Part shown: one piece after another, positions 20,561-35,599 of the stretch
Layout of the letters: every line of letters starts with the position of its first letter
Numbering within the stretch: the first letter of the stretch is position 1
Assembly: GCF_018408855.1 (NCBI RefSeq)
Contig: NZ_AP024325.1
Location: 1,054,001 to 1,118,000, forward strand
Source of the DNA: Caballeronia sp. NK8
GTDB taxonomy: Bacteria; Pseudomonadota; Gammaproteobacteria; Burkholderiales; Burkholderiaceae
Length of the DNA stretch: 64,000 nt
Direction of reading: 5' to 3'
Program-made: the position numbers and the translations under genes
The notes under the pieces: model-generated
What the model saw: the letters and a program-made list of their open reading frames with translations, nothing else
Databases searched by the model: none
What the model was told of the DNA's origin: nothing

Positions 20561-21457
20561 TCAAAGCGCCAGCACATTCACCGCGACATCCACATGATGC
20601 GCCCCGCCGCCGAGAATCATCCCGCGCAATAGCGAAACATCGCTGTAATCGCGCCCCGTCGCGAGCGTGACATGATCCAGATCCGCAAGCACATCATTAG
20701 TCGGATCGAGATCGATCCATCCGCTCTGCGGACAATGCACCGATACCCACGCATGCGACGCATCCGCCCCGATGAGCCGCGCATGTCCCGGCGGTGGATC
20801 GTTGCGCAGATAGCCGCTCACATAGCGCGCCGGCAGACCCAGCGCCCGCAGGCAACCGATCATCACCTGCGAGAAGTCCTGACACACGCCATGACGCAAT
20901 TCGAACGCGCGGGATGCGGGCGTATCGACCGTAGTGGCCGACGGCCGATACTCGAAGTCCTCGTGAATGCGGTGCATCAGATCGATCGCGCCCGCAACGA
21001 GCGGCGTGTCCGCGCCGAAGCTCATCCGCGCATACTCGCGCAGTTCATGATCGACCGAAATATTGGGCGACGCATAACAAAACTCGCTCTCCGGATAGAA
21101 CGGGCCACCCGCGCGATAGCGCAGCCGTTGCGCGACTTCCTCCCACGGCGGCGTGGTGTCCGCGTCGAGCGCGCTCCAGCGCGGCGTCAGGCGCACGGTG
21201 GTTTCGCTCGTCATCGAGAGGCGCTCGTGCGGCGCATCGAGCGAGAAGTACAGCACGTCGTTGCCGAATGCATCGACGCGGCTATGCACGTACGACGGAA
21301 CCGGCTCGATACGCTCCGTATGCGAGATGACCTGCTGCCACGGACAATGCAGCGGACGAATCGTAGCGAGATGCTGCGCGATCTCGACCGGCGTGGAATA
21401 GCGATATGTCGTGCGATGCGTGACCGCGAGCACCGTATCGTTAAGACCGAGACTCAT
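20561..21457 (-). CDS. Transglutaminase-like cysteine protease domain protein
   Basis: The protein is 298 residues. An N-terminal beta domain (THRTTYRYSTPVEIAQHLATI) is followed by a transglutaminase-like core. The triad is visible as Cys191 in RHGVCQDFSQVM, His near 236 in ASHAWVSV and Asp near 250 in DLDPTND. Such bacterial proteins are usually peptidases or amidases rather than protein cross-linkers. The ATG overlaps the stop of the upstream ATP-grasp/alpha-E gene by four bases (ATGA), so the two are translationally coupled. This is part of the predicted peptide ligase/peptidase block. Confidence 0.9.
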   Translation of the reverse strand: MSLGLNDTVLAVTHRTTYRYSTPVEIAQHLATIRPLHCPWQQVISHTERIEPVPSYVHSRVDAFGNDVLYFSLDAPHERLSMTSETTVRLTPRWSALDADTTPPWEEVAQRLRYRAGGPFYPESEFCYASPNISVDHELREYARMSFGADTPLVAGAIDLMHRIHEDFEYRPSATTVDTPASRAFELRHGVCQDFSQVMIGCLRALGLPARYVSGYLRNDPPPGHARLIGADASHAWVSVHCPQSGWIDLDPTNDVLADLDHVTLATGRDYSDVSLLRGMILGGGAHHVDVAVNVLAL

Positions 21458-24063
21458 GACGACACCTGCGCGGCGGGCGTGGTCGCGTGGCTGAAATAGC
21501 GCGCGCTCACTTCGTTCGACGCAGCGCCCACCGATGCGATGAGCCGGTCGCAGAGCACGATCAGCGCATCATGACGGCCATCCTCGCGTGTGTCGCACAG
21601 GGCAGTCAGGTCCGGCAATGCATCGGCGTGAACCAGCAGATCCGAGAAACGCATCGCCTGCGCGCGACGCGTGCCGCCCGCTGCCGCGGCGATCTCGTCG
21701 AGCTTCGTGCGCAGGCGCGCGTACACGCCATAGAGCCCGCGTGGATTGGTTTGATCCACGACGATCAGATCGATCAGCGCCGGCACTTCCAGCCTGCCCG
21801 GATAAAGCGATCGATACGTGAGCGTGCTGTCGAAAAGCTGCAGAAGCAGATCGAAGCCCGCGGGCGATGCGAGCGTGCCGCGCTCGGCGACCACGCGCAA
21901 AAAAGCGGCCATCGTCGCGACGCGTTCGATGTGCCGCCCGATGAACAGAAGCCGCCACGCTTCGTCGCGCGTCATGCGGTCGCCCTGCGCGCCGCTGATC
22001 GCGCAAAGCTGCGTCGCGAGATGTTCGAGCGCGCTCGTGAGCATCAGTCGATCGTAATCGCGGCCGATGCCCGTCCCGACTTCGACGCCGGTAGCGGCGA
22101 GCGCGTCGCGAAAGTCGTTGCGCGACGCGAGAATCGTGCGCCAGTGATCCGTCGAAAGCCGGTCGCGTATTTCACCGCACGCGCGCACCTGATCCGCGAG
22201 ATTGCCGCCGATGCTCGTCGCCCTGCTCGATTCCGGCAGTCCCGCGACGAGCGCGCGCTCGAACGCCTGCGGCGTGCTGCGTGCGAGCGTATCGACCGAT
22301 GGAATCAGTTCGCATTGCGAGGCAAGTTCGACCAGTGTCGGGAAGAGTTCTTCGGCGTCGCTGCCGTCGAGCATCCCGAGCAGGAGCCGGCACAGCCGCA
22401 CGTTGTTTTCCGCGCGCTCGCCGTATCGCCCTGCCCAGAAGAGGTTTTCCGCCGCACGGCTCGACACGGTGCGATGCTTGCGCAGGTCGCCCGGTTTGAT
22501 CGGCGTGGGACGCAGCGAGACCGCGCCGCCGGGCTGGCTCGACATCACCCAGGTATCGACGCTACTGCCGCCGAACTGCATCGACACGGTCGCGCGCTTG
22601 TCGGCCGCGAGCCGCGTGAAACCGCCGGGCATCACGCTCCAGCTTCCGTCGATGTTGGCGATGGCGTAGGCGCGCAGCACGCACGGACGCGAGCCGAGCG
22701 CGCCGTCATGAAAACGCGGCGCCGTGGCAAACGGCAGATTCTCCTGCACCGTGAAGACATCCGGCGCGCGCTCGATGCGCTCGCGCCACGCTGCGATCTG
22801 CTGCACGCCCGCGTCGATGCCCGGCGCCTGATCGGCCTGCGCACCGGGCCACGTCGGTGCAATCAGCGCGCTGTCGACATTGTCGAAAAGCTCGCGCCGC
22901 GCCGCTTCCTCGCCGCACCACCATGTCGGCACGGTCGGCAATTCGAGGGGTTCATCGAGCAGCGCTTGCGCGATACCCGGCAGGAACGCATTGAGCGCGG
23001 GCGTTTCGGTGAAGCCCGCGCCCGGCACGTTGGAGACCATCACGTTGCCCGCGCGCATCACCTGCAATAAGCCCGGTACGCCGATGGTCGAATCCGCGCG
23101 CAACTCGACGGGATCGCAGAACGCATCGTCGAGACGCCGCAATACCGCATGCACGCGCGACAAACCGGCCAGCGTCTTGAGATAGAGCTTGTCGTGGCGC
23201 ACCGTGAGATCCTTGCCTTCGACGAGCGTGACGCCGAGATAGCGCGCGAGAAACACATGCTCGAACCAGGTCTCGCTGAATGGACCGGGACTCAGCAACG
23301 CGATATGCGGCGCATCGTTCGATGCACCGCCGCGGCCGCCCTCGTCATCGCGCATCGTCGCTCGCGCCGCTTGCGCAATGGTCGCGATGAGTTGCGAATA
23401 GGTCGCGGCGAGCCGGCTCACACGCATCGCGCGGAATGGATCGGCGAACAGGCTCGCGACGATCAGGCGGTTTTCCAGCGCATAGCCCAGCCCTGAAGGC
23501 ACCTCGGTGCGATGCGCAATGACCGTCCACGCGCCCGACGGCGCACGCGCGAGATCCACCGCGACGATCTGCAGGAAGCGGCCGAAAGGCGGCATGAAAC
23601 CCTTCACCGCGCGCAGGTAGCCGGGATGGCCGAACACGAGCGCGCCCGGCAGGAGCCCGCGATGCAGCAAGGTCTGCGGGCCATAGACATCGGCGACGAT
23701 CGCTTCCATCAGGCGCGCGCGCTGCGCGACGCCGCGTTCGATCACCGCCCACTCTTGCTCGTCGATGATGAGCGGCAAGAGATCGAGCGACCACGCGCGC
23801 GGCTTGCCGTTATCGGCGTACACGTTGTAGGTGATGTCGTTGTCGCGCACCTGCTGCGCGACGGCGGCGACACCATCATCGAGCCGCGCGATGCCTTGCT
23901 CGCCGAGCAGTTCGAAGAACTGGCGCCACGGCTCGCGCAACTGGCCGGACGCATCGCGCAGTTCGTCCCAATGCCCTTCGCGCGCCGGCAGCGTGCGCAG
24001 CAGCGCAAGCGCATCGACGCGTGCGGCGGTGATATCGAAGGGCAAGCTCGATTGATAAGCCAA
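21454..24063 (-). CDS. Circularly permuted ATP-grasp enzyme fused to an alpha-E domain
   Basis: The protein is 869 residues. Residues 1 to about 510 form a circularly permuted ATP-grasp domain: ITYNVYADNGKPRAWSLDLL, EVPSGLGYALENRL, LLSPGPFSETWFEHVFLARY, RRLDDAFCDPVELRADSTIG, and a MPGGFTRLA segment. Residues from about 530 form an all-helical alpha-E domain beginning RAAENLFWAGRYGERAENN. ATP-grasp enzymes join a carboxylate to an amine using ATP; here an unknown peptide bond is expected. Separate genes for the same two domains lie at 28781-31336, so this is a fusion paralogue. It is coupled to the transglutaminase-like gene downstream. Confidence 0.9.
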   Translation of the reverse strand: MAYQSSLPFDITAARVDALALLRTLPAREGHWDELRDASGQLREPWRQFFELLGEQGIARLDDGVAAVAQQVRDNDITYNVYADNGKPRAWSLDLLPLIIDEQEWAVIERGVAQRARLMEAIVADVYGPQTLLHRGLLPGALVFGHPGYLRAVKGFMPPFGRFLQIVAVDLARAPSGAWTVIAHRTEVPSGLGYALENRLIVASLFADPFRAMRVSRLAATYSQLIATIAQAARATMRDDEGGRGGASNDAPHIALLSPGPFSETWFEHVFLARYLGVTLVEGKDLTVRHDKLYLKTLAGLSRVHAVLRRLDDAFCDPVELRADSTIGVPGLLQVMRAGNVMVSNVPGAGFTETPALNAFLPGIAQALLDEPLELPTVPTWWCGEEAARRELFDNVDSALIAPTWPGAQADQAPGIDAGVQQIAAWRERIERAPDVFTVQENLPFATAPRFHDGALGSRPCVLRAYAIANIDGSWSVMPGGFTRLAADKRATVSMQFGGSSVDTWVMSSQPGGAVSLRPTPIKPGDLRKHRTVSSRAAENLFWAGRYGERAENNVRLCRLLLGMLDGSDAEELFPTLVELASQCELIPSVDTLARSTPQAFERALVAGLPESSRATSIGGNLADQVRACGEIRDRLSTDHWRTILASRNDFRDALAATGVEVGTGIGRDYDRLMLTSALEHLATQLCAISGAQGDRMTRDEAWRLLFIGRHIERVATMAAFLRVVAERGTLASPAGFDLLLQLFDSTLTYRSLYPGRLEVPALIDLIVVDQTNPRGLYGVYARLRTKLDEIAAAAGGTRRAQAMRFSDLLVHADALPDLTALCDTREDGRHDALIVLCDRLIASVGAASNEVSARYFSHATTPAAQVSS

Positions 24064-24099
24064 TGTCGTCTCTGTTCTTTATTCGAATGATGATTGTCT

Positions 24100-27000
24100 T
24101 CAACGATAGCGCAGGTCGAGCGTGAACGGAAATTCGATGCTGCGTTCGCGGCTTTCGACCTCCATCGCGCCGGGCGTGTGACCCGTCGCGAAGAAGCGCG
24201 AGCGTCGACGGCTTTCCGCTTCATAGGCGTTGACCGGGAAGGTCTGATAGTTGCGCCCGCCCGGATGCGCGACGTGATACTGGCATCCGCCGATCGCGCG
24301 CCCCGTCCATGTATCGACGATATCGAACGTAAGGGGCGCATGAGCGTCGATGGTCGGATGCAGCGACGCCGCCTGCGACCACGCGCGAAAGCGCACGCCC
24401 GCGACGTATTCGCTCACGCGCCCGGTCGGCTGCAACGGCAAGGCCCGGCCGTTCACCGTCACCACATGACGATTGCCGTTCAGTCCGAGCGCGCGCACTT
24501 CGAGCCGTTCGACGGACGAATCGACGAAACGCACCGTGCCGCCGATCGCGCCCTCTTCGCCCATCACATGCCACGGCTCCAGCGCGTGGCGCACGGTGAG
24601 CGCAATGCCATTCGTATCGTAAGCGCCGACGAGCGGAAAGCGGAATTCGAAGTGCGGTGCGAACCAGCTTCGTTCGAACGCGAAGCCTGCCTCGCGCAAC
24701 TCGGCGAGCACGTCGTCGAAATCCATCTGCACGAAGGTGCCGAGCATGAAGCGGTCATGCAGTTCCGTGCCCCAGCGCGTGAGGCGCGCGGTATAGGGCG
24801 TCTCCCAGAATCGCGCGACGAGCGCCCGCAGCAGCAACTGTTGCACGAGACTCATGCGCGCATGCGGCGGCATTTCGAAGCCGCGCAGTTCGAGCAGACC
24901 CAGGCGGCCCGTGGGGCCATCGGGCGAGTACAGCTTGTCGATACAGAACTCCGCGCGATGCGTGTTGCCGGTCACATCGATCAGGATGTTGCGCAGAATG
25001 CGGTCGATGAGCCACGGCGGCACGGTCGCATTGCCGCGCCCGCCCAGCAGATCGAGTTGACGCTGCAATTCGCCAAACGCGATCTCCAGCTCGTAGATCT
25101 GATCATTGCGCGCCTCGTCGACACGCGGGGCCTGGCTCGTCGGACCAGTGAAGAGTCCCGAGAACAGCATCGACAACGACGGATGGTTATGCCAGTACGC
25201 GATCAGGCTCGCGAGCAGATCGGGGCGTCGCAGGAACGGGCTGTCCGCAGGCGTCGCGCCGCCGAGCACGAAATGATTGCCGCCGCCCGTGCCGGTGTGA
25301 CGGCCATCGAGCATGAACTTCTCCGGGCTCAGATAGGACTCGTGGGCCGCGCCATAGAGAAACTCCGTGTGCTCGACGAGATCGTTCCAGTTCGCCGCCG
25401 GATGGATATTCACTTCGATCACGCCGGGGTCGGGCGTGACTTGCAGCACCTTGAGACGCGGATCGCGCGGCGGCGGATAGCCTTCGACGATCACCGGAAT
25501 CTGCAGATCGGCGGCGGTCGCTTCGACGGCGCTCAGCAGATCGAGATAGTCATCGAGTTCGGTGAGCGGCGGCATGAACACGTGGATGAGCTTGTTGCCG
25601 GTGCCGTGTTTCTCGCGGGCGTCGGCTTCCGCTTCGGGACCGGCCGCGCGCGCGGGGTCGCGCGCTTCCACGCACAGCGCGATACGCGCGATCCAGCCGG
25701 CCGACTCGCCACGCTCGGGTCTACGCTCCCGCGCTGCCGCCGTTCCCGTGGCGCCGCGCTGCGTTCCGCCCGTATCGGCGTTTTGCATGCGTGATTCAAC
25801 ATCCAGATCCGCATATTGCATGCGTAATTCAGTCGCGGTGCGCAACGGCGCGGACGGCGCGAACGGATCGTGCGCGTGCTGCCAGGGGTAATCGCCCTCC
25901 GACACCCACGGCAGCGAATCGAGCGGCACCCGGTAGCCCATCGGCGAATCGCCCGGAACCAGGTACATGCGCTCGTCGCGGAAGAACCACGGCCCGCTCA
26001 CCCAGCGGCCGGAGTCCGGGCCGTGGCCTTCTTCGCGCGCGATCGGCAGCGCGTAGCCGGTCACGGACGACAGGCCCGCATCGAACACGCGGCGCAGACG
26101 GGCGCGTTCCAGTTCGTCACTGAGGCGCGAATCGAACGGATCGACGTTCACCGGCAAGCGGCGCTCGCGCCACAGGTAGTACCAGGTGTCCTCGTATCCC
26201 GGTTGAATGTATTTTGAATCCAGAGACAGCTTGCCCGCGAGATGGCTGATGAAGCGCGCGGCGTCATCGGCGGTATACGACGCTGGCTGGCGCTCGTCCG
26301 CGAAAAGCGCCGGATCGTGCCAGCACGGCTCGCCGTCTGCGCGCCACAAGAGCGACAACGCCCAGCGCGGCAACTGCTCGCCCGGATACCACTTGCCCTG
26401 CCCGATATGCAGAAAGCCGCCCGTGCCGTATTGCGCGCGCAGCTTGTCCATCAGCGATACGGCGTATGCGCGCTTGGTCGGGCCGAGCGCGTCGGTGTTC
26501 CATTCGGGCGCGTCGCGATCGCGCACCGCCACATAGGTCGGCTCGCCGCCCATCGTGAGGCGCACGTCCGCTGCGACCAGTTGCGCATCCACCTGCTCGC
26601 CCATGCGCAGCACCGCGCTCCAGTCTTCCTCGCTGTAGGGCTTCGTGACGCGCGGTGTTTCGAGCACGCGCTGGATCGACATCGTGTGCTCGAATTCGAC
26701 TTCGCACTTGTCGACCGCGCCGGAGACCGGCGCCGCGCTGTCCGGCTCAGGCGTGCATGCGACGGGTATGTGTCCCTCGCCCGCGAGCAGGCCCGACGTC
26801 GGATCGAAGCCGATCCAGCCCGCGCCCGGCAGAAACACCTCGCACCACGCGTGCAGATCGGTAAAGTCCACCTCGGTGCCGCTCGGGCCATCGAGCGATT
26901 TGGTATCCGGCGCGAGTTGCAGCAGATAGCCGGACACGAAGCGCGCGGCGAGACCGAGATGACGCAACGTTTCGACGAGCAGCCAGCCCGAGTCGCGGCA

Positions 27001-27537
27001 CGATCCCGCCGCGCTTTCGAGCGTCTCCTCCGGCGTTTGCACGCCCGGCTCCATGCGGATCAGATAGCGGATCTCTTGCGCCAGCCGCTGATTGAGTCCG
27101 ACGAGGAAATCCATCGTGGCAAGCGGCGTCCTGTCGATACTTTCGACGAATGCAGCAAAACGCGGTGTCGGTTCGCGCTTGACCATGTATGGCGCGAGGT
27201 CGTGCAGCAACTCGGGCGCATACGCAAATGGAAATTTCTCGGCGGAAGGTTCGAGAAAAAAATCGAACGGGTTATACACGGCCATCTCGGCGACGAGATC
27301 TATCGTCACCTTGAGTTCGCGCGTTTTCTCGGGAAACACGAGGCGCGCCTGATAGTTCGCGAACGCGTCCTGCTGCCAGTTGATGAAGTGATCCTCGGGT
27401 TCGACGCGCATCGAATACGACACGATCGGCGTGCGGCAATGCGGCGCGGGCCGCAAGCGCACGACTTGCGGCGAAAGACCGACGAGCCGGTCATAGCGAT
27501 AATGCGTGACATGGTTCAACGCGACACGAATGGACAC
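24100..27537 (-). CDS. Transglutaminase-like protein with large DUF2126 domain
   Basis: The protein is 1145 residues. The N-terminal ~290 residues form a transglutaminase-like domain: Cys near 180 in SAAGSCRDSGWLLVE, His near 229 in DLHAWCEVFLPG, and Asp near 245 in GFDPTSGLL. The rest is the conserved DUF2126 region, including LTMGGEPTYVAVRD, QGKWYPGEQLPRWAL, a GGGNHFVLGG segment and LLELRGFEMPPHARM. The sequence pattern hints at an amidoligase-type enzyme, but the reaction is not established to my knowledge. Between about 570 and 640 there is a variable low-complexity linker that contains two copies of a DNA micro-repeat. The gene lies 36 bases before the ATP-grasp/alpha-E fusion, on the same strand. 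Confidence 0.88.
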   Translation of the reverse strand: MSIRVALNHVTHYRYDRLVGLSPQVVRLRPAPHCRTPIVSYSMRVEPEDHFINWQQDAFANYQARLVFPEKTRELKVTIDLVAEMAVYNPFDFFLEPSAEKFPFAYAPELLHDLAPYMVKREPTPRFAAFVESIDRTPLATMDFLVGLNQRLAQEIRYLIRMEPGVQTPEETLESAAGSCRDSGWLLVETLRHLGLAARFVSGYLLQLAPDTKSLDGPSGTEVDFTDLHAWCEVFLPGAGWIGFDPTSGLLAGEGHIPVACTPEPDSAAPVSGAVDKCEVEFEHTMSIQRVLETPRVTKPYSEEDWSAVLRMGEQVDAQLVAADVRLTMGGEPTYVAVRDRDAPEWNTDALGPTKRAYAVSLMDKLRAQYGTGGFLHIGQGKWYPGEQLPRWALSLLWRADGEPCWHDPALFADERQPASYTADDAARFISHLAGKLSLDSKYIQPGYEDTWYYLWRERRLPVNVDPFDSRLSDELERARLRRVFDAGLSSVTGYALPIAREEGHGPDSGRWVSGPWFFRDERMYLVPGDSPMGYRVPLDSLPWVSEGDYPWQHAHDPFAPSAPLRTATELRMQYADLDVESRMQNADTGGTQRGATGTAAARERRPERGESAGWIARIALCVEARDPARAAGPEAEADAREKHGTGNKLIHVFMPPLTELDDYLDLLSAVEATAADLQIPVIVEGYPPPRDPRLKVLQVTPDPGVIEVNIHPAANWNDLVEHTEFLYGAAHESYLSPEKFMLDGRHTGTGGGNHFVLGGATPADSPFLRRPDLLASLIAYWHNHPSLSMLFSGLFTGPTSQAPRVDEARNDQIYELEIAFGELQRQLDLLGGRGNATVPPWLIDRILRNILIDVTGNTHRAEFCIDKLYSPDGPTGRLGLLELRGFEMPPHARMSLVQQLLLRALVARFWETPYTARLTRWGTELHDRFMLGTFVQMDFDDVLAELREAGFAFERSWFAPHFEFRFPLVGAYDTNGIALTVRHALEPWHVMGEEGAIGGTVRFVDSSVERLEVRALGLNGNRHVVTVNGRALPLQPTGRVSEYVAGVRFRAWSQAASLHPTIDAHAPLTFDIVDTWTGRAIGGCQYHVAHPGGRNYQTFPVNAYEAESRRRSRFFATGHTPGAMEVESRERSIEFPFTLDLRYR
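25781..25832. repeat. Two direct copies of a TGCATGCGTRATTCA micro-repeat inside a coding region
   Basis: TTTTGCATGCGTGATTCAAC (25781-25800) and ATATTGCATGCGTAATTCAG (25813-25832) are near-identical copies 32 bases apart. They lie in frame inside the DUF2126 gene and encode the related peptides SRMQNAD and LRMQYAD in its variable linker. Similar units occur at 381-400 and, inverted, at 9664-9683. Confidence 0.5.
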
Positions 27538-27699
27538 ACCAGACTCCTTTGTTCAAATGACGCCGTGCGCGCGACACGCGCTGCTACGTAATTCACGCCT
27601 GCCATGAAAATACCGTCAGTTCACGGCACGATGTTTGCGACTGCACCCCCAACCGCGCGTGCATGACCGTCGCGCCATATCCCTTCTGCCGGCCACACG

Positions 27700-28770
27700 A
27701 TGAAGACCTTTCACTGCAACCGTTGCAACCAGCTGGTGTTCTTCGAAAACACGCATTGCGAGAACTGCGGCGCACGCCTCGGCTACGTGCCCGAGATCAA
27801 TCAGATCAGCGCGTTCGAAGAGACCGATGACGGCCGCTGGCGCAGCCTTCATCCGCTCGCGGAGAATCTGGTCTATCGGCCGTGCCACAACTACGCCGTC
27901 GAAAACGTCTGCAACTGGGTCGTTTCCGCGCCCGAACCGGATACGCCCGAGACGCTCTGTTGTTCGTGCGAACTGACGAGCACCATTCCCAACCTCTCGA
28001 ATCCGGAGAACCGCCTCTACTGGTATCGCATCGAAGCCGCCAAGCGGCGCCTCCTCTATACGTTCGCGGAACTGGGCCTGCCGATACAGTCGCGTCAGGA
28101 CGACCCCGAACGCGGCCTCGAATTTCAGTTTCTCGAAGGCGATGCGCAGGGCCACGGTGTGATGACGGGTCATAACAACGGCATCATCACGCTCAACATT
28201 GCCGAAGCCGACGACGCGCATCGCGAGAAGACACGTTCCGCGCTGCACGAGCCGTATCGCACGCTGCTCGGCCATTTCCGCCATGAATCCGGGCACTACT
28301 TCTTCGACCGCCTGATCGCCGATACGGCACGCATCGCCCCGTTTCGCACCGCATTCGGCGACGAACAGGCCGACTACGCCGCCGCGCTCGATCGTCACTA
28401 CCAGGAAGGTCCGCCCGCGCAGTGGGAGAACAACTTCATCAGCAGCTATGCCACGATGCATCCTTGGGAAGACTGGGCGGAAACCTGGGCGCATTACCTG
28501 CATATCGTCGATACGCTCGATACCGCCGTATCGTGCGGCCTCGTGCTCGTGCCCGACAGCCCGCACGAACCCACGCTCACCGACCAGACTCCGGTCGAGG
28601 AAACCACTTTCGATAACCTGATGAAACGCTGGTTTCCGCTCACCTATGTGTTGAACAGTTTGAATCGCAGCCTCGGCATGCCGGACGGTTATCCGTTCAC
28701 GCTCGCGCCCGCGGTCATCGACAAGCTTCGCTTCGTGCATCGCGTCGTCGCGGCAGCGGCCAAGCGTTAA
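27700..28770 (+). CDS. Zinc-ribbon putative metallopeptidase (Peptidase_Mx-like)
   Basis: The protein is 356 residues. A zinc ribbon opens it (C6-x2-C9 and C20-x2-C23), then a CCSCELT cluster near 87-90. A HESGHYFFD motif gives the metallopeptidase signature H195-E196-x2-H199, and a downstream WEDWAETWAHYLH segment probably supplies the third ligand. This matches the putative zinc-binding peptidase family often found beside transglutaminase/ATP-grasp/alpha-E genes. It has no signal peptide, so it is probably cytoplasmic. It reads opposite to its neighbours, divergent from the DUF2126 gene. Confidence 0.85.
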   Translation: MKTFHCNRCNQLVFFENTHCENCGARLGYVPEINQISAFEETDDGRWRSLHPLAENLVYRPCHNYAVENVCNWVVSAPEPDTPETLCCSCELTSTIPNLSNPENRLYWYRIEAAKRRLLYTFAELGLPIQSRQDDPERGLEFQFLEGDAQGHGVMTGHNNGIITLNIAEADDAHREKTRSALHEPYRTLLGHFRHESGHYFFDRLIADTARIAPFRTAFGDEQADYAAALDRHYQEGPPAQWENNFISSYATMHPWEDWAETWAHYLHIVDTLDTAVSCGLVLVPDSPHEPTLTDQTPVEETTFDNLMKRWFPLTYVLNSLNRSLGMPDGYPFTLAPAVIDKLRFVHRVVAAAAKR

Positions 28771-28780
28771 CGGCACGCTT

Positions 28781-29803
28781 TCAGTCCTTGCCTTGCGTTT
28801 GAGTTTGAGTCTGCGTCTGCGATTGAGTCGGCGGCTGCTCCGGCGCCGCCGGTTCTTCCGGCTCGATCGGCAGCAGAAACTCGCGGCTCACGCTACTCGC
28901 CAGGTCGTTCACGCGCGCGAGGAAATTCACGAGATAGGCGTGCAATCCGCCGCGCAGGATTTCCCCGATACGTCCGTTCTGCAATTCCGAACTCATTTGC
29001 GCCGCAAGTTTCGCCGCTTCAGTGTCGCGCCCTTTCTTGACTTGACCGATCAGTTGCTCCACTTCGGCGATGCTCGCCGCAAGCGAACGCGGCCATTCGC
29101 CGTACAGGATCAGCAGGCCCGCGACACGTTCGGGCGTAATCACATCCCGATACACGCGGCGATACACTTCGAGCCCCGATACCGAGCCCAGCACCGCAAC
29201 CCAATGGTGATAATCGAACGGTTGTGCGGAGGTATCGGCGCGCTGCTCCATCATTTCGAACTTCACGTCGAGAATGCGCGCCGTATTGTCCGCGCGTTCG
29301 ATGAAAGTCCCGAGACGCATGAAGTAGAACGCGTCATCCTTGACGAGCGTGCCGAGCTGAACGCCGCGCGACAGATGCGAGCGGAACTTCACCCATTCGA
29401 AGAACGTATAGGGCTCGCGTTCGAGTATGCCGTCGGCCAGCATGCGCTGACAGTCGAGCCAGGTCGTATTGAGCGATTCCCATAGCTCGCTGTTGGTCGA
29501 GCTTCGCACGGCCCGCGCATTTTCGCGCGCGGCGCGCAGACAACTGGCGATCGACGATGGATTGGTCATATCGCGCGCCATGAAGTCGATCACCTCACGG
29601 CTTTTCATACCGTGATGCGCGGCGGAATAGATGCCGCTCAGTTCCGATATCGACAGCATCGCGCGCCAGCCGAGTTCCGCGTATTCATCGGATTGCGGCA
29701 GCAGCGAAAGCTGATAGTTCGCATCGAGCATCCGGGCGGTGTTTTCGGCGCGCTCGGTATAGCGCGCCATCCAGAAGAGATGATCCGCGGTACGGCTCAG
29801 CAT
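28781..29803 (-). CDS. Alpha-E domain-containing protein
   Basis: The protein is 340 residues and mostly helical. It begins LSRTADHLFWMARYTERAEN, the same signature as the C-terminal half of the fused protein at 21454-24063. A second copy, FIERADNTARILDVKFEMM, lies near the middle. The C-terminal tail is low complexity, with Pro-rich then alternating Gln-Thr residues. Alpha-E domains are found with circularly permuted ATP-grasp enzymes and transglutaminases; their biochemical role is not known to me. It lies 60 bases downstream of the ATP-grasp gene and is probably co-transcribed. Confidence 0.9.
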   Translation of the reverse strand: MLSRTADHLFWMARYTERAENTARMLDANYQLSLLPQSDEYAELGWRAMLSISELSGIYSAAHHGMKSREVIDFMARDMTNPSSIASCLRAARENARAVRSSTNSELWESLNTTWLDCQRMLADGILEREPYTFFEWVKFRSHLSRGVQLGTLVKDDAFYFMRLGTFIERADNTARILDVKFEMMEQRADTSAQPFDYHHWVAVLGSVSGLEVYRRVYRDVITPERVAGLLILYGEWPRSLAASIAEVEQLIGQVKKGRDTEAAKLAAQMSSELQNGRIGEILRGGLHAYLVNFLARVNDLASSVSREFLLPIEPEEPAAPEQPPTQSQTQTQTQTQGKD

Positions 29804-29863
29804 GGTGTTCCCGTTTGTTTATCGTTGTCTTCGGTGGCTCGGCGCTTTCTTCAGGAATGTTCC

Positions 29864-31336
29864 TCAGCGTTCCAACACCCACGTATCTTTCGTGCCGCCG
29901 CCTTGCGACGAATTCACGACGAGCGAACCCTCTCGCAACGCGACGCGCGTCAGACCGCCCGGCACCATGCGTACTTCGGTGCCGGACAGCACGAACGGGC
30001 GCAGATCGATATGACGCGGCGCTATGCCCGCTTCCACATAGGTCGGACACGTGGACAGCGCAAGCGTTGGTTGCGCGATGTATTTCTCCGGATGCGCTTC
30101 AAGCACCGCCCGGAATTCCGCTATCTGCGCGGCGGTCGACGCCGGACCGACCAGCATGCCGTAACCGCCCGCGCCATGCGTTTCCTTCACGACGAGTTCG
30201 GGCAGATGATCGAGCACATAGGCGAGATCGTCGGGCTTGCGGCACATCCACGTCGGCACGTTGTTGAGAATCGGCTCTTCGCCGAGATAGAAACGCACCA
30301 TGTCCGGCACGTAGGGATAGATCGATTTATCGTCGGCGATGCCCGTGCCCACTGCATTGCACAGCGAGACATTGCCCGCGCGATACGCGCCGATCAAACC
30401 GGGAACGCCGAGCGCCGAGTCCGCGCGGAACACGTCCGGATCGAGAAAATCGTCGTCGATGCGGCGATAGATCACATCGACACGCTGCGGCCCCTGCGTC
30501 GTGCGCATATATAGATAATCGTTCTCGACGAAGCAGTCCTGTCCTTCGACGAGCTCGACGCCCATCTGCTGCGCGAGAAACGCGTGCTCGAAATAGGCCG
30601 AGTTATACATGCCCGGCGTCATGACGACGATGGTCGGGTTTTCCACCGAAGCAGGCGCGGCTGCGCGCAAGGTATCGAGCAGCAAGTCGGGATAATGCGC
30701 GACCGGCGCGACGCGATTGCGCGCGAACAGATCGGGAAAGAGGCGCATCATCATCTTGCGGTTTTCGAGCATGTACGAAACGCCCGATGGCACGCGCAAG
30801 TTATCCTCCAGCACATAGAACTCGCCCTGTCCGGCGCGCACGATATCGATGCCCGCGATATGCGCGTAGATATCGCGCGCGACGCTGACGCCGCGCATTT
30901 GCGGACGATATTGCGCGTTGCCGAGAATCTGCGCCTCGGGAATGATGCCCGCGCGAATGATGTCCTGCTCGTGATAGATATCGTGGATGAAGCGATTGAG
31001 CGCGTTCACGCGTTGCCGCAGACCGCGTTCCAAGGCGCGCCATTCGTCGGCCGGAAAGATGCGCGGAATGACGTCGAAGGGAATCGTGCGCTCCGGGATG
31101 ATGCCCGGGAGATCGCTGGTACCGTACACCGCGAATGTTATGCCGACGCGTCTGAAGTTGAGGTCCGCCTGCGCACGCTTGATGTCGATCTGCTGCTCGC
31201 TTTGCGCGGCGAGCCAGACCATGAAATCGCGGTAATGCGTGCGCGGATCGCCGACGCCGCGAAATGCCGCCGCCGGCACGCCGTGCGCCTCAAGATCACT
31301 GCGCTCGAACATCTCGTTGAAGAATGCTTGCGTCAT
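29864..31336 (-). CDS. Circularly permuted ATP-grasp family protein
   Basis: The protein is 490 residues, a stand-alone version of the ligase domain in the 869-residue fusion. Shared segments include VGITFAVYG, RVPSGVSYMLENRKMM, MTPGMYNSAYFEHAFLAQQM, YRRIDDDFLDPDVFRADSAL and MVPGGLTRVALREGS. KETHGAGGYGMLVGP is a glycine-rich loop typical of ATP binding. The start at 31336 has GGAAGA about 7 bases upstream; a longer frame to 31507 has no support. ATP-dependent amide or peptide bond formation is inferred from the fold. It heads an operon with the alpha-E gene. Confidence 0.9.
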   Translation of the reverse strand: MTQAFFNEMFERSDLEAHGVPAAAFRGVGDPRTHYRDFMVWLAAQSEQQIDIKRAQADLNFRRVGITFAVYGTSDLPGIIPERTIPFDVIPRIFPADEWRALERGLRQRVNALNRFIHDIYHEQDIIRAGIIPEAQILGNAQYRPQMRGVSVARDIYAHIAGIDIVRAGQGEFYVLEDNLRVPSGVSYMLENRKMMMRLFPDLFARNRVAPVAHYPDLLLDTLRAAAPASVENPTIVVMTPGMYNSAYFEHAFLAQQMGVELVEGQDCFVENDYLYMRTTQGPQRVDVIYRRIDDDFLDPDVFRADSALGVPGLIGAYRAGNVSLCNAVGTGIADDKSIYPYVPDMVRFYLGEEPILNNVPTWMCRKPDDLAYVLDHLPELVVKETHGAGGYGMLVGPASTAAQIAEFRAVLEAHPEKYIAQPTLALSTCPTYVEAGIAPRHIDLRPFVLSGTEVRMVPGGLTRVALREGSLVVNSSQGGGTKDTWVLER

Positions 31337-31734
31337 AGCCGGTCTTCCAATATGAAGTGCATAGGGTGGCGATTCCCCTTCGCTCTGTTTCTGGTTGCAC
31401 TCGCAAGACGCTTGAATAGCCCGAAAGACGCGACGTATCCGATCATGCCGAAACGTCGTTAGGCAACCTCGAAGCGCGATGCTCTTCCACCATTTCGAGT
31501 GGAGCATCGATTGCGCGGGCAGCCCAGTGCCAAACGACCAAAAGCAACTTCAATGCCAATGTTCTAAACGGTTCGCCTCCTTGATGACCCTGTGTCCTGA
31601 CCGCGCATTGTCATACCGATGCACCAAAACAGCGCGCGCTTTTCTCCGGCAGATGCTGCATGACGGTGCGCGAAATACCGGCAACCCTCGCGCCGCCGGT
31701 ATGATAGACGCCTTACAGCACGTTTCTTACGCCT
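31337..31734. other. Divergent intergenic region between the ATP-grasp and yceH genes
   Basis: These 398 bases separate divergent genes and must hold promoters for both. A TATGAT (-10-like) box lies near 31699-31704, about 30 bases before yceH, without a clear -35. I see no convincing gene, repeat or terminator here. Confidence 0.4.
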
Positions 31735-32445: not shown

Positions 32446-33177
32446 ATGGATGAGCCGCTCATCTCGGCACCGCTCGTGTTTCGCGATGATGGAACGCCGT
32501 ACTCGCCGCGACACGACGATATCTATCACAGCGCGGCGGGCGCGCTGGCTCAGGCGCGGCACGTCTTTCTGAACGGCAACGGCCTGCCCGAGCGCTGGCG
32601 CTCACGCCCGCGCTTCACCGTGCTCGAAACCGGCTTCGGCATGGGCGTCAATTTCCTTGCGACATGGGCGGCGTGGCGAGACGACGCGCATCGCGCGCAG
32701 ACACTCGAATTCGTGTCGATAGAAAAGCATCCGTTCAGCGCGCACGATTTGCGCGCAGCGCATGCAGCGATCCTCGACGACGACGCTATCGCACCGCTCG
32801 CCGATGCGCTCGCGTCAGCATGGCCACCGCTCGAGCCGGGCTCGCACAGGCTCGCATTCGATGCCGGCGCGCTCACACTGACGCTCGTTCTCGGTGATGC
32901 GACAGACCGCCTGTCTCACCTCGCCGATGAAGGCATCGCAGCGGACGCGATCTATCTCGATGGCTTCGCGCCAGCCCGGAACCCGGACATGTGGACGCCG
33001 GGCATCTTCGCGTCGCTCGCACGCATCGCCAGAGACGATGCGACGTTCGCCACTTATACCAGCGCGGGCAATGTCAAACGCGCGCTCAGGGAAAGCGGAT
33101 TCGAATACCGCAAGGTCCGGGGATTCGGCGGCAAACGCGCCATGCTCATCGGCAAACGTCATGACTGCAAGCGATAA
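32446..33177 (+). CDS. mnmD: tRNA 5-methylaminomethyl-2-thiouridine methyltransferase, MnmD-type
   Basis: The protein is 243 residues and corresponds to the methyltransferase half of MnmC. A SAM-binding ETGFGMGVNF motif lies near residue 60 and DGFAPARNPDMWTPGIF near 168-184, both hallmarks of MnmD. It would add the last methyl group to make mnm5s2U at wobble position 34 of tRNA. The FAD-dependent MnmC(o) half is absent, so another enzyme must supply the substrate or a full mnmC may exist elsewhere. It lies between yceH and the luciferase-like gene, overlapping the latter by 17 bases. Confidence 0.88.
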   Translation: MDEPLISAPLVFRDDGTPYSPRHDDIYHSAAGALAQARHVFLNGNGLPERWRSRPRFTVLETGFGMGVNFLATWAAWRDDAHRAQTLEFVSIEKHPFSAHDLRAAHAAILDDDAIAPLADALASAWPPLEPGSHRLAFDAGALTLTLVLGDATDRLSHLADEGIAADAIYLDGFAPARNPDMWTPGIFASLARIARDDATFATYTSAGNVKRALRESGFEYRKVRGFGGKRAMLIGKRHDCKR

Positions 33178-34120
33178 CACTCCGGCTTCGCCTTCCATCG
33201 CGGATACCGTGTTTGCAGAAGGCAAGCTATCCATCGGCATCACACTGCCGATTACTGGCGACAACCAGAGCGTCGTCGATTTCAACGAGCAGATCGCCAT
33301 TGCGCGACTCGCCGATCGACTCGGTTTTCGCGCGCTCTGGGTCCGTGATGTGCCGCTCAACAGCATCGACTATCCCGATCCGGTCGGGCATCTCGATCCC
33401 TGGGTGCTGCTCGGCGCGCTTGCATCGAATACGGAGCGCAGCGCGCTCATCAGCGGCGCGATCGTGTCGACGCTCAGACATCCGCTTCATGTCGCGAAGG
33501 GCGCGATCTCCGTCGCTACGCTGTCTCAGGGACGCTTCATTCTCGGTCTCGGTTCAGGCGACCGCCCGCCTGAATATGCCGCGTTCGGGCGCGATCCCGA
33601 TGCGCGGCGAGATATCTATCGTGAGCACTGGGACACGCTCGCGGCGGCCGTTACATTGCCCTCGCGCGTGATTCCCGATAGCGCACCTGAAGGCGCGCCA
33701 GCGTTCTATATGTTGCCGCGCCAGCATGCATCCATTCCCATGCTCGCCGTGGGTTCGGGCGGCCAGAGCGTCGACTGGATCGCACGACATTCGCTCGGCT
33801 GGATGACTTACCATCGCGAGCCGCAGGCGCAACGCGGCCGCTACAGCATGTGGCGCGCGGCGGTCGAACGCGCTGCATCCGGCGCGTTTCGCGCCTTCGG
33901 CGTCGCCATGCGGCTCGATCTCAGCAAGGATGCCGACGAACCTGCAACCGATATCGCGCTTGGTTATCGCACCGGGCGTCATGCGCTCATCGCGGTTCTG
34001 CGTGATATGCGCGAAAGCGGCACGCATCATGTCACGCTCAACATCACGTCGGAACGACGGCCTGCGCGCGATATCATCGAAGAAGTCGCCGCACATGTGC
34101 TTCCCGAGTTTCATCGCTGA
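33161..34120 (+). CDS. Luciferase-like (LLM class) flavin-dependent oxidoreductase
   Basis: The protein is 319 residues, an F420- or FMN-dependent TIM-barrel oxidoreductase of the bacterial luciferase superfamily. Typical segments are RLADRLGFRALWVRDVPL, HPLHVAKGAISVATLSQGRFILGLGSGD and MLAVGSGGQSVDWIARHSLGW. The ATG at 33161 lies inside the end of mnmD, overlapping by 17 bases. Since F420 is rare in this group of bacteria, FMN is more likely. The substrate is unknown. A co-transcribed amidase follows 24 bases later. Confidence 0.85.
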   Translation: MTASDNTPASPSIADTVFAEGKLSIGITLPITGDNQSVVDFNEQIAIARLADRLGFRALWVRDVPLNSIDYPDPVGHLDPWVLLGALASNTERSALISGAIVSTLRHPLHVAKGAISVATLSQGRFILGLGSGDRPPEYAAFGRDPDARRDIYREHWDTLAAAVTLPSRVIPDSAPEGAPAFYMLPRQHASIPMLAVGSGGQSVDWIARHSLGWMTYHREPQAQRGRYSMWRAAVERAASGAFRAFGVAMRLDLSKDADEPATDIALGYRTGRHALIAVLRDMRESGTHHVTLNITSERRPARDIIEEVAAHVLPEFHR

Positions 34121-34144
34121 ATCTGTTCGTTCATTCACGAGACC

Positions 34145-35599
34145 ATGACCGCCTCCTCGCCCAGCAACGATATCGTTTCACTCGACGCCGTCGCGCTTTC
34201 GCGCGCCATTCACGCGCGCGATGTATCGTGCGTCGAAGTGATGAACGCTTATCTCGCGCACATCGATGCCATCAATCCGGCGGTCAATGCGATCGTCGCG
34301 ATGCAGAACCGTGATGCACTGCTTTCTCTCGCCGCTGAACGCGATGCACAGTTATCCGGCGGTGAAAGCCTCGGCCCCTTGCACGGCTTTCCGCAAGCGC
34401 CCAAGGATATCCTGCCCGTCGCCGGCATGGTCACGACGAAAGGCTCGCCCATCTATGCGGGCGAAGTCACTCAGGTCGATGCAATCGTCTTCGAACGCAT
34501 GCGCCGTGCGGGCGCGATATTCATCGGCCGCACCAATTCGCCCGAGTTCGGTCTGGGCGGGCACACGTATAACCCGGTCTATGGCACCACGCGCAATGCG
34601 TTCGATCAGTCGCGCTCGGCAGGCGGCAGCAGCGGCGGCGCGGCGGTGTCGGTCGCGCTGCGCATGCTGCCATGCGCGGATGGCTCGGACATGATGGGTT
34701 CGTTGCGCACGCCCGCTGCATTCAACAATGTCTTCGGTTTTCGCACCACGCCGGGCTGCGTGCCCTATGCGCCCAGCGACGACGTGTTCTTTCAGCAGTT
34801 CAGCGTAGCCGGTCCGATCGCGCGAAACATTCCTGATCTCGGCTTGCTATTGTCCGTGCAGGCGGGCTTCGATGCGCGCGCGCCGCTATCGCGCAGAAGC
34901 GATAACCGCGCCGATTTCGCCAGCGCGCTCGAGTGCGATCTGCGCGGCACGCGTATCGGCTGGCTCGGCGATCTGAATGGACGCCTGCCGACCGAAGCGG
35001 GGTTGATGGACACATATGCCTCGGCGCTGCGCCACTTCGAAACAGCGGGCTGCACGGTCGAGCCGGCCGAAGTGGACTTCGACCTCGAACGCCTGTGGGA
35101 TGCGTGGATCGATTTGCGCAGCCTCACGTTCTCCGGCACCAATGCGCCGCTCTATCGCGATGCTGCCAGACGCAAGCTGCTCAAGCCCGAAGCGATATGG
35201 GAAATAGAACGAGGATTGAAGTTATCGGGCGAAGATGTCTCGCGTGCGGTTCGCGATCGCGCGGCATGGTATCAGGCGATCAATGCGTTATTCGAGCGCT
35301 TCGACTATCTGGTCATGCCTTCGGCTCAGGTCTTTCCATTCGATGCGGAACTCGACTGGCCTCATGCAATCGCCGGGCGTGCGATGGATACCTATCACCG
35401 CTGGATGGAAACAGTCGTTCCCGCGACGATGGCCTCGCTGCCCGCATTGAGCGCCCCGGCTGGCTTTGGCGCGAATGGTTTGCCGGCGGGACTGCAGATC
35501 ATCGGCCCGACGCAGGGCGATCTGGGCGTGCTGCAGATTGGCCTCGCTTATGATCGCGTAAGCGGTTTCTCACGCGTGCGCAGTCCGTTGCTCGGCTGA
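34145..35599 (+). CDS. Amidase (amidase signature family)
   Basis: The protein is 484 residues with a complete amidase-signature Ser-cisSer-Lys triad: Lys87 in QAPKDILPVAG, Ser162 in AGGSSGGAAVS and Ser186 in MGSLRTPAA. The family hydrolyses amide bonds of varied small molecules and includes GatA. Nothing nearby (no gatB or gatC) suggests a tRNA role, so a catabolic amidase is more likely. The segment DGSDMMGSLRTP differs from the common DGGGSIR form; many non-GatA amidases vary here. It probably shares an operon with the LLM oxidoreductase. Confidence 0.87.
   Translation: MTASSPSNDIVSLDAVALSRAIHARDVSCVEVMNAYLAHIDAINPAVNAIVAMQNRDALLSLAAERDAQLSGGESLGPLHGFPQAPKDILPVAGMVTTKGSPIYAGEVTQVDAIVFERMRRAGAIFIGRTNSPEFGLGGHTYNPVYGTTRNAFDQSRSAGGSSGGAAVSVALRMLPCADGSDMMGSLRTPAAFNNVFGFRTTPGCVPYAPSDDVFFQQFSVAGPIARNIPDLGLLLSVQAGFDARAPLSRRSDNRADFASALECDLRGTRIGWLGDLNGRLPTEAGLMDTYASALRHFETAGCTVEPAEVDFDLERLWDAWIDLRSLTFSGTNAPLYRDAARRKLLKPEAIWEIERGLKLSGEDVSRAVRDRAAWYQAINALFERFDYLVMPSAQVFPFDAELDWPHAIAGRAMDTYHRWMETVVPATMASLPALSAPAGFGANGLPAGLQIIGPTQGDLGVLQIGLAYDRVSGFSRVRSPLLG

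Follow-up and report, generated by a model that had tools for sequence, protein, structure and literature searches.

The gene cluster analyzed here lies in a 64,000-nucleotide stretch (the window) of Caballeronia sp. NK8, contig NZ_AP024325.1, positions 1,054,001 to 1,118,000, in a genome of 9.2 Mb and seven contigs. It encodes an ATP-grasp and an alpha-E protein as separate chains, a second ATP-grasp and alpha-E fused in one chain, two proteins with transglutaminase-like (TG) domains, one of them fused to DUF2126, and a metallopeptidase. The original prediction was of two parallel copies of a peptide-ligase system. We conclude that the cluster is probably one composite amidoligase set of the nitrogen-starvation type, in which a conserved pseudo-ligase accompanies a single active hub, the unfused ATP-grasp and alpha-E pair. 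The gene identities were assigned from Pfam matches, every one far above the cut-off, and all of the predicted genes (ATP-grasp, alpha-E, TG, DUF2126 and metallopeptidase) were found:

29864..31336, minus strand: unfused circularly permuted ATP-grasp, 490 residues (PF14403, 7e-169; PF04174)
28781..29803, minus strand: unfused alpha-E (PF04168, 1.4e-88)
27700..28770, plus strand: zinc-ribbon and Peptidase_Mx metallopeptidase (PF10005 and PF15887, 2e-110)
24100..27537, minus strand: TG domain fused to DUF2126 (PF09899, 1317 bits)
21454..24063, minus strand: fused ATP-grasp and alpha-E (Pfam, 4e-130 and 9e-54)
20561..21457, minus strand: TG protein (Pfam)

The assignment of one active copy was deduced mainly from the ATP-grasp residues. 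The unfused protein of the window carries E177-D-N179, K384, GGYG and K483, of which we take E-x-N to be the Mg ligands and K384 and the Gly loop to be ATP binders, by analogy to GspS and GshB. These residues (E177, N179, K384, GGYG and K483) were invariant in 40/40 distinct unfused sequences, whereas E177, N179 and GGYG were kept in none of 205 fused rows, with residue 179 being R in 204 of them. K384 was retained in 55 and K483 in 4 of the 205, while D164 and R446 were retained in all. The fused rows comprised 85 open reading frames (ORFs) of at least 780 residues from loci and 120 from among the protein matches listed, of 4684; the unfused ORFs were of 440 to 720 residues. After removal of identical rows and of a second unfused copy from the window, the 205 fused rows all differ in letters; the window protein and close strains may still be represented in both parts, loci and protein matches.

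Because the fused rows were mostly from Burkholderiales, a more diverse set was drawn using 20 stretches that represent further families within the phylum. The 21 fused proteins (at least 740 residues) were from 16 of these stretches, four named plasmids (B. cenocepacia, Enterobacter, Azospirillum and Granulicella, the last of the Acidobacteriota) and the window itself. The 16 unfused proteins (400 to 740 residues) included those of Tsukamurella (Actinomycetota) and Deinococcus; these size limits excluded a 325-residue ATP-grasp of L153 and the split copies of L043. The same pattern was obtained, with E, N and GGYG present in 0/21 fused versus 16/16 unfused proteins. Among the fused proteins K384 was retained in 8, K483 in 13, D164 in 19 and R446 in all. 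The fused gene is not decaying, since its ratio of nonsynonymous to synonymous substitution (dN/dS) against three Caballeronia relatives was 0.095, 0.085 and 0.145, near the values for DUF2126 and TG and indicative of purifying selection. On these sequence comparisons the fused protein seems to be a conserved pseudo-ATP-grasp whose presumed ATP site has apparently been lost, and the unfused ATP-grasp is the predicted active copy.

The same fused proteins have also lost residues from their alpha-E domain. The unfused alpha-E is an internal tandem duplication with the motif ERA[DE]NTAR once per half, as supported by a half-versus-half local score of 67 compared with 28.5 ± 5.1 (highest 46) for 200 shuffles. 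N81, N95, R97, E109, N112, D172, R176 and D179 were each found in 42/42 unfused copies versus 0 to 5 of 198 fused copies, and R93 was retained in 21/198. About nine residues that never vary in unfused copies are thus gone from the fused alpha-E half, while E17, R18, E169 and R170 were retained in at least 196/198, the first motif and E169-R170 still being present. The loss of residues from both the ATP-grasp and the alpha-E of one protein suggests that these alpha-E residues take part in the ligase reaction and makes alpha-E, a domain with no assigned role, a candidate component of the ligase site.

Loss of the ATP-binding residues from one copy had been named beforehand as one of the results that would refute the claim of two parallel copies, and since the presumed ATP-site residues were lost from the fused copy that claim is not supported. 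Two independent ligase systems for different substrates or successive steps, with a fused ATP-grasp active through altered residues, are considered very unlikely. Purifying selection on the fused gene, the retention of D164 and R446, and K384 in 55/205 would be consistent with such activity. However, the presumed Mg ligands E and N and the Gly loop are gone in 205/205 and 21/21, otherwise invariant alpha-E residues were lost from the same proteins, and the fused gene was never found without an unfused ATP-grasp (40/40 among 100 family genomes). Nor is the second set complete with a TG as had been supposed, because no separate TG belonging to the unfused pair was found in the window cluster. 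A third ATP-grasp/alpha-E pair is encoded elsewhere in the genome, on contig C2, where it belongs to a complete operon of ATP-grasp, alpha-E, TG and Anbu (C2:1182324-1186228, in L007). This operon holds the genome's only Anbu match, and Anbu is not in the window cluster.

The relationship between the sets was deduced from co-occurrence in 100 Burkholderiaceae genomes (the family) and 200 genomes of the phylum, with counts that ignore shared descent. In the family, fused and unfused genes were separated by frame length and score, and broken unfused copies were scored as present (G063, G038, G094 and G023). The phylum was judged on alpha-E alone, without a search for the ATP-grasp, and its per-genome match numbers are complete. 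In the family, the fused gene and DUF2126 occurred in the identical 40 genomes, always on the same strand with their domain matches 1.6 to 1.9 kb apart. A full-length unfused ATP-grasp and an unfused alpha-E accompany them in every one of the 40, although the alpha-E of G063 consists of frameshifted pieces only and that of G038 is cut at a contig end. The unfused alpha-E lay within 12 kb of the DUF2126 cluster in 22/40 (G063 only as fragments); together with the constant DUF2126-fused pairing, this agrees with the prediction that the clustering is conserved in relatives. Unfused alpha-E was present in 72/100 genomes, including all 60 that have Anbu, and the other 12 carry DUF2126 with a linked alpha-E (fragments in G063). 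Peptidase_Mx was found in 29/100, in 25 of these along with DUF2126. The fused and unfused sets are not interchangeable, as they have differing partners in family genomes: the fused gene follows DUF2126, and the unfused alpha-E follows Anbu, DUF2126 or both.

In the phylum, where the sets are widespread (alpha-E in 112/200 genomes sampled), unfused alpha-E accompanied DUF2126 in 63/63 genomes and Anbu in 67/69, and 16 of the 111 genomes with unfused alpha-E have neither. Exceptions to the pairing with the fused gene were G135, G163 and G175, which have DUF2126 beside Anbu and no fused gene. Because of the counts in both surveys, the unfused pair is regarded as a hub; it behaves as one with Anbu and DUF2126 as alternative clients, tightly in the family and more loosely in the phylum. 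L139, L151 and L152, in which DUF2126 adjoins Anbu with no fused gene within the stretch, are a variant with merged client modules. In G013, G030, G034, G075 and G081, Anbu is present and the sole unfused alpha-E is part of the DUF2126 cluster, away from Anbu, as if one pair served both. In G051, one of the Anbu copies is adjoined by alpha-E fragments. In G055, an unfused ATP-grasp near the DUF2126 cluster (C68:12833-13960) has no adjoining alpha-E match; another ATP-grasp of this genome, on C102, does have an alpha-E.

The association with Anbu also bears on protein tagging, in which a peptide or amino acid would be ligated to proteins and then removed or degraded by TG, Mx or Anbu during nitrogen starvation; we judge this unlikely. 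We know of no tag or tagged protein, which counts against it. Peptidase genes do adjoin the ligase genes, and unfused alpha-E accompanies Anbu in 60/60 family genomes as well as nearly all of those in the phylum. The hypothesis itself was put forward in PMC6376114, but in the available text of that paper Anbu was inactive on the peptides tested.

In the composite set that we favor, the hub would form an amide, either a peptide or a conjugate with an amine, by way of an acyl-phosphate, as expected from family membership. The weak fold matches of DUF2126 included glutamine synthetases (GS) and a gamma-glutamylmethylamide synthetase, and DUF2126 is a putative, probably GS-like amidoligase. It is joined to a transglutaminase-like cysteine hydrolase/transferase whose Cys-His-Asp triad was present in 71/71, and the two may carry out a further ligation, which they may also reverse or trim. 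The fused ATP-grasp/alpha-E, with its domains kept and the presumed ATP/Mg residues gone, is most likely a noncatalytic subunit, which would bind the substrate or product of the hub, or pair with the hub, for delivery to DUF2126. The second TG (Cys192 in 85/85 relatives, HAW in 81/85 and Asp251 in 84/85) and the metallopeptidase (HExxH, H195/E196/H199, and eight zinc-ribbon Cys in 24/24 relatives) may process or recycle the product. A more specific version is offered tentatively, as we doubt somewhat that it holds in full: the dedicated pseudo-ligase pairs with the active ATP-grasp/alpha-E and passes its product to DUF2126, so that two ligases form an assembly line, and the second alpha-E ERADNTAR motif sits in the ATP-grasp active site. 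Such a position would explain why the motif and the ATP site were lost together.

The minus-strand genes are ordered ATP-grasp, alpha-E, TG-DUF2126, fused ATP-grasp/alpha-E and TG. The unfused ATP-grasp starts at the ATG at 31336, in a frame already open from 31507. The start of the TG gene overlaps the stop of the fused gene as ATGA, and this overlap was read directly in the sequence. The metallopeptidase gene, correctly identified in the original prediction but now reassigned to the plus strand, is convergent with alpha-E (a gap of 10 bases between the gene ends) and divergent from DUF2126. A minus-strand ORF opposite to it (27616-28776) gave no Pfam match. Another Peptidase_Mx match was observed in the same genome at C4:751664-752389, some 330 kb away from this cluster.

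Candidate −24/−12 (sigma54-type) promoters and an NtrC-like site were found by consensus match and were compared in three Caballeronia relatives (L044, L045 and L046):

31543..31558, minus strand: sigma54-type promoter TGGCATTGAAGTTGCT, preceding the ATP-grasp gene; near-identical in L044, L045 and L046
31620..31636, minus strand: NtrC-like site CGCGCTGTTTTGGTGCA, 78 bp farther upstream than this sigma54 site; matched in L044 to L046
27624..27639, plus strand: sigma54-type promoter CGGCACGATGTTTGCG, preceding the metallopeptidase gene; shared by L044 and L045, with a similar site in L046

Allowing at most two mismatches and one upstream region per locus (L007 omitted), sigma54-type sites preceded the leading genes ATP-grasp (26/35), DUF2126 (49/72) and Mx (12/25), compared with 4 to 6% in shuffles, and were rare before the internal genes (fused, 2/65; TG, 5/83; alpha-E, 1/41). 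NtrC-like sites were found for ATP-grasp in 12/35, DUF2126 in 18/72 and Mx in 13/25 (shuffles, 5 to 10%). No sigma54-type site was found upstream of DUF2126 in the window or in L044 to L046, which read-through from alpha-E past the antisense metallopeptidase might explain, nor within 350 bp upstream of the Anbu-linked ATP-grasp gene on C2. Since the leading genes carry sigma54- and NtrC-type sites, the set is expected to be on in nitrogen limitation, and it is probably turned on under nitrogen shortage. The sites found here are consistent with the NtrC control published for B. cenocepacia, where, in the available part of PMC5491218, I35_5080-5083 are NtrC and sigma54 dependent (log2 −6.0 to −9.4 in the ntrC mutant). 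A TG-domain gene of P. putida and its two neighbors (PP_2686-2688) are up in nitrogen limitation according to a passage of PMC7801951, and we infer these neighbors to be ATP-grasp and alpha-E. The proteasome-type protease COG3484 (Anbu) is placed within a predicted sigma54 regulon in a section of PMC12316311.

This regulation could also serve small-molecule nitrogen scavenging, in which GS-like gamma-glutamyl-amine ligation is followed by TG hydrolysis. Such a scheme, presumably with the logic of PuuA and GMAS, is suggested by the weak fold matches of DUF2126. It also fits the extension of NtrC control in B. cenocepacia to polyamine-transport, urea and nitrate genes, as described in the same portion of PMC5491218, and the correlation of these domains with urea metabolism and urea domains in marine metagenomes noted in an excerpt of PMC3597751. 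Scavenging is a possible function, although we lean against it.

On a 90.7-kb IncFII plasmid of Enterobacter roggenkampii (L039, 9603-18794), ATP-grasp, alpha-E, TG-DUF2126, the fused gene and TG form a single run. This plasmid is of the PLSDB type non-mobilizable, and its nearby insertion sequences suggest horizontal transfer of the five-gene run. An Acidithiobacillus caldus megaplasmid (L041) has two Anbu-like genes, DUF2126 split in two frames and an unfused pair near ntrC, glnL, glnA and an amidase. The window cluster is itself adjoined at 32894-35599 (plus strand) by genes for a luciferase-like monooxygenase and then an amidase, which possibly have a role in nitrogen scavenging.

To our knowledge, no product has been described for these ATP-grasp/alpha-E gene sets. 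The likely catalytic ATP-grasp of a widespread system is now singled out, and the conserved look-alike tied to DUF2126, together with the probable nitrogen control, is a guide to the gene and the condition for experiments. Iyer et al. in 2009 reportedly described amidoligase systems of circularly permuted ATP-grasp, alpha-E and transglutaminase and predicted amide or peptide synthesis. This prediction is cited in the available text of PMC6376114 and PMC5666114. The same domain set and general prediction apply here, and the tie to such systems was upheld by Pfam matches to circularly permuted ATP-grasp and alpha-E domains in both sets. The fused ATP-grasp without the presumed ATP site, its dependence on the unfused pair and the sigma54-type promoters are added. 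No mention of an inactive fused member was found in a literature search that did not extend to Iyer et al. 2009. The domain set and general prediction are already known, and the ATP-site loss in the fused member is apparently new.

Among comparable systems, GspS (glutathionylspermidine synthetase/amidase) also combines a circularly permuted ATP-grasp ligase with a cysteine amidase. The window set differs in having a TG domain and separate chains rather than a CHAP amidase, for which no match was obtained at E 0.001 in any cluster gene. The sole sequence relative of the unfused ATP-grasp in the PDB (3n6x, E 4e-209) carries the glutathionylspermidine synthetase name as its annotation. RimK/RimB and RloABC have an ATP-grasp of a different family. 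They resemble the window set in combining an ATP-grasp and a peptidase within a single operon; in the available part of PMC12239564, however, their peptidases are aspartic, the TG of RloABC is inactive, and alpha-E and DUF2126 are not mentioned. The set also resembles the Anbu operon, which is tied to nitrogen starvation and whose ATP-grasp, in one such operon, frees phosphate from ATP (both from the accessible text of PMC6376114). The ATP-grasp and alpha-E are of the same families, with 75% and 49% identity to the genome's own Anbu-linked pair, whereas the window cluster has DUF2126, the pseudo-ATP-grasp fusion and the metallopeptidase in place of Anbu.
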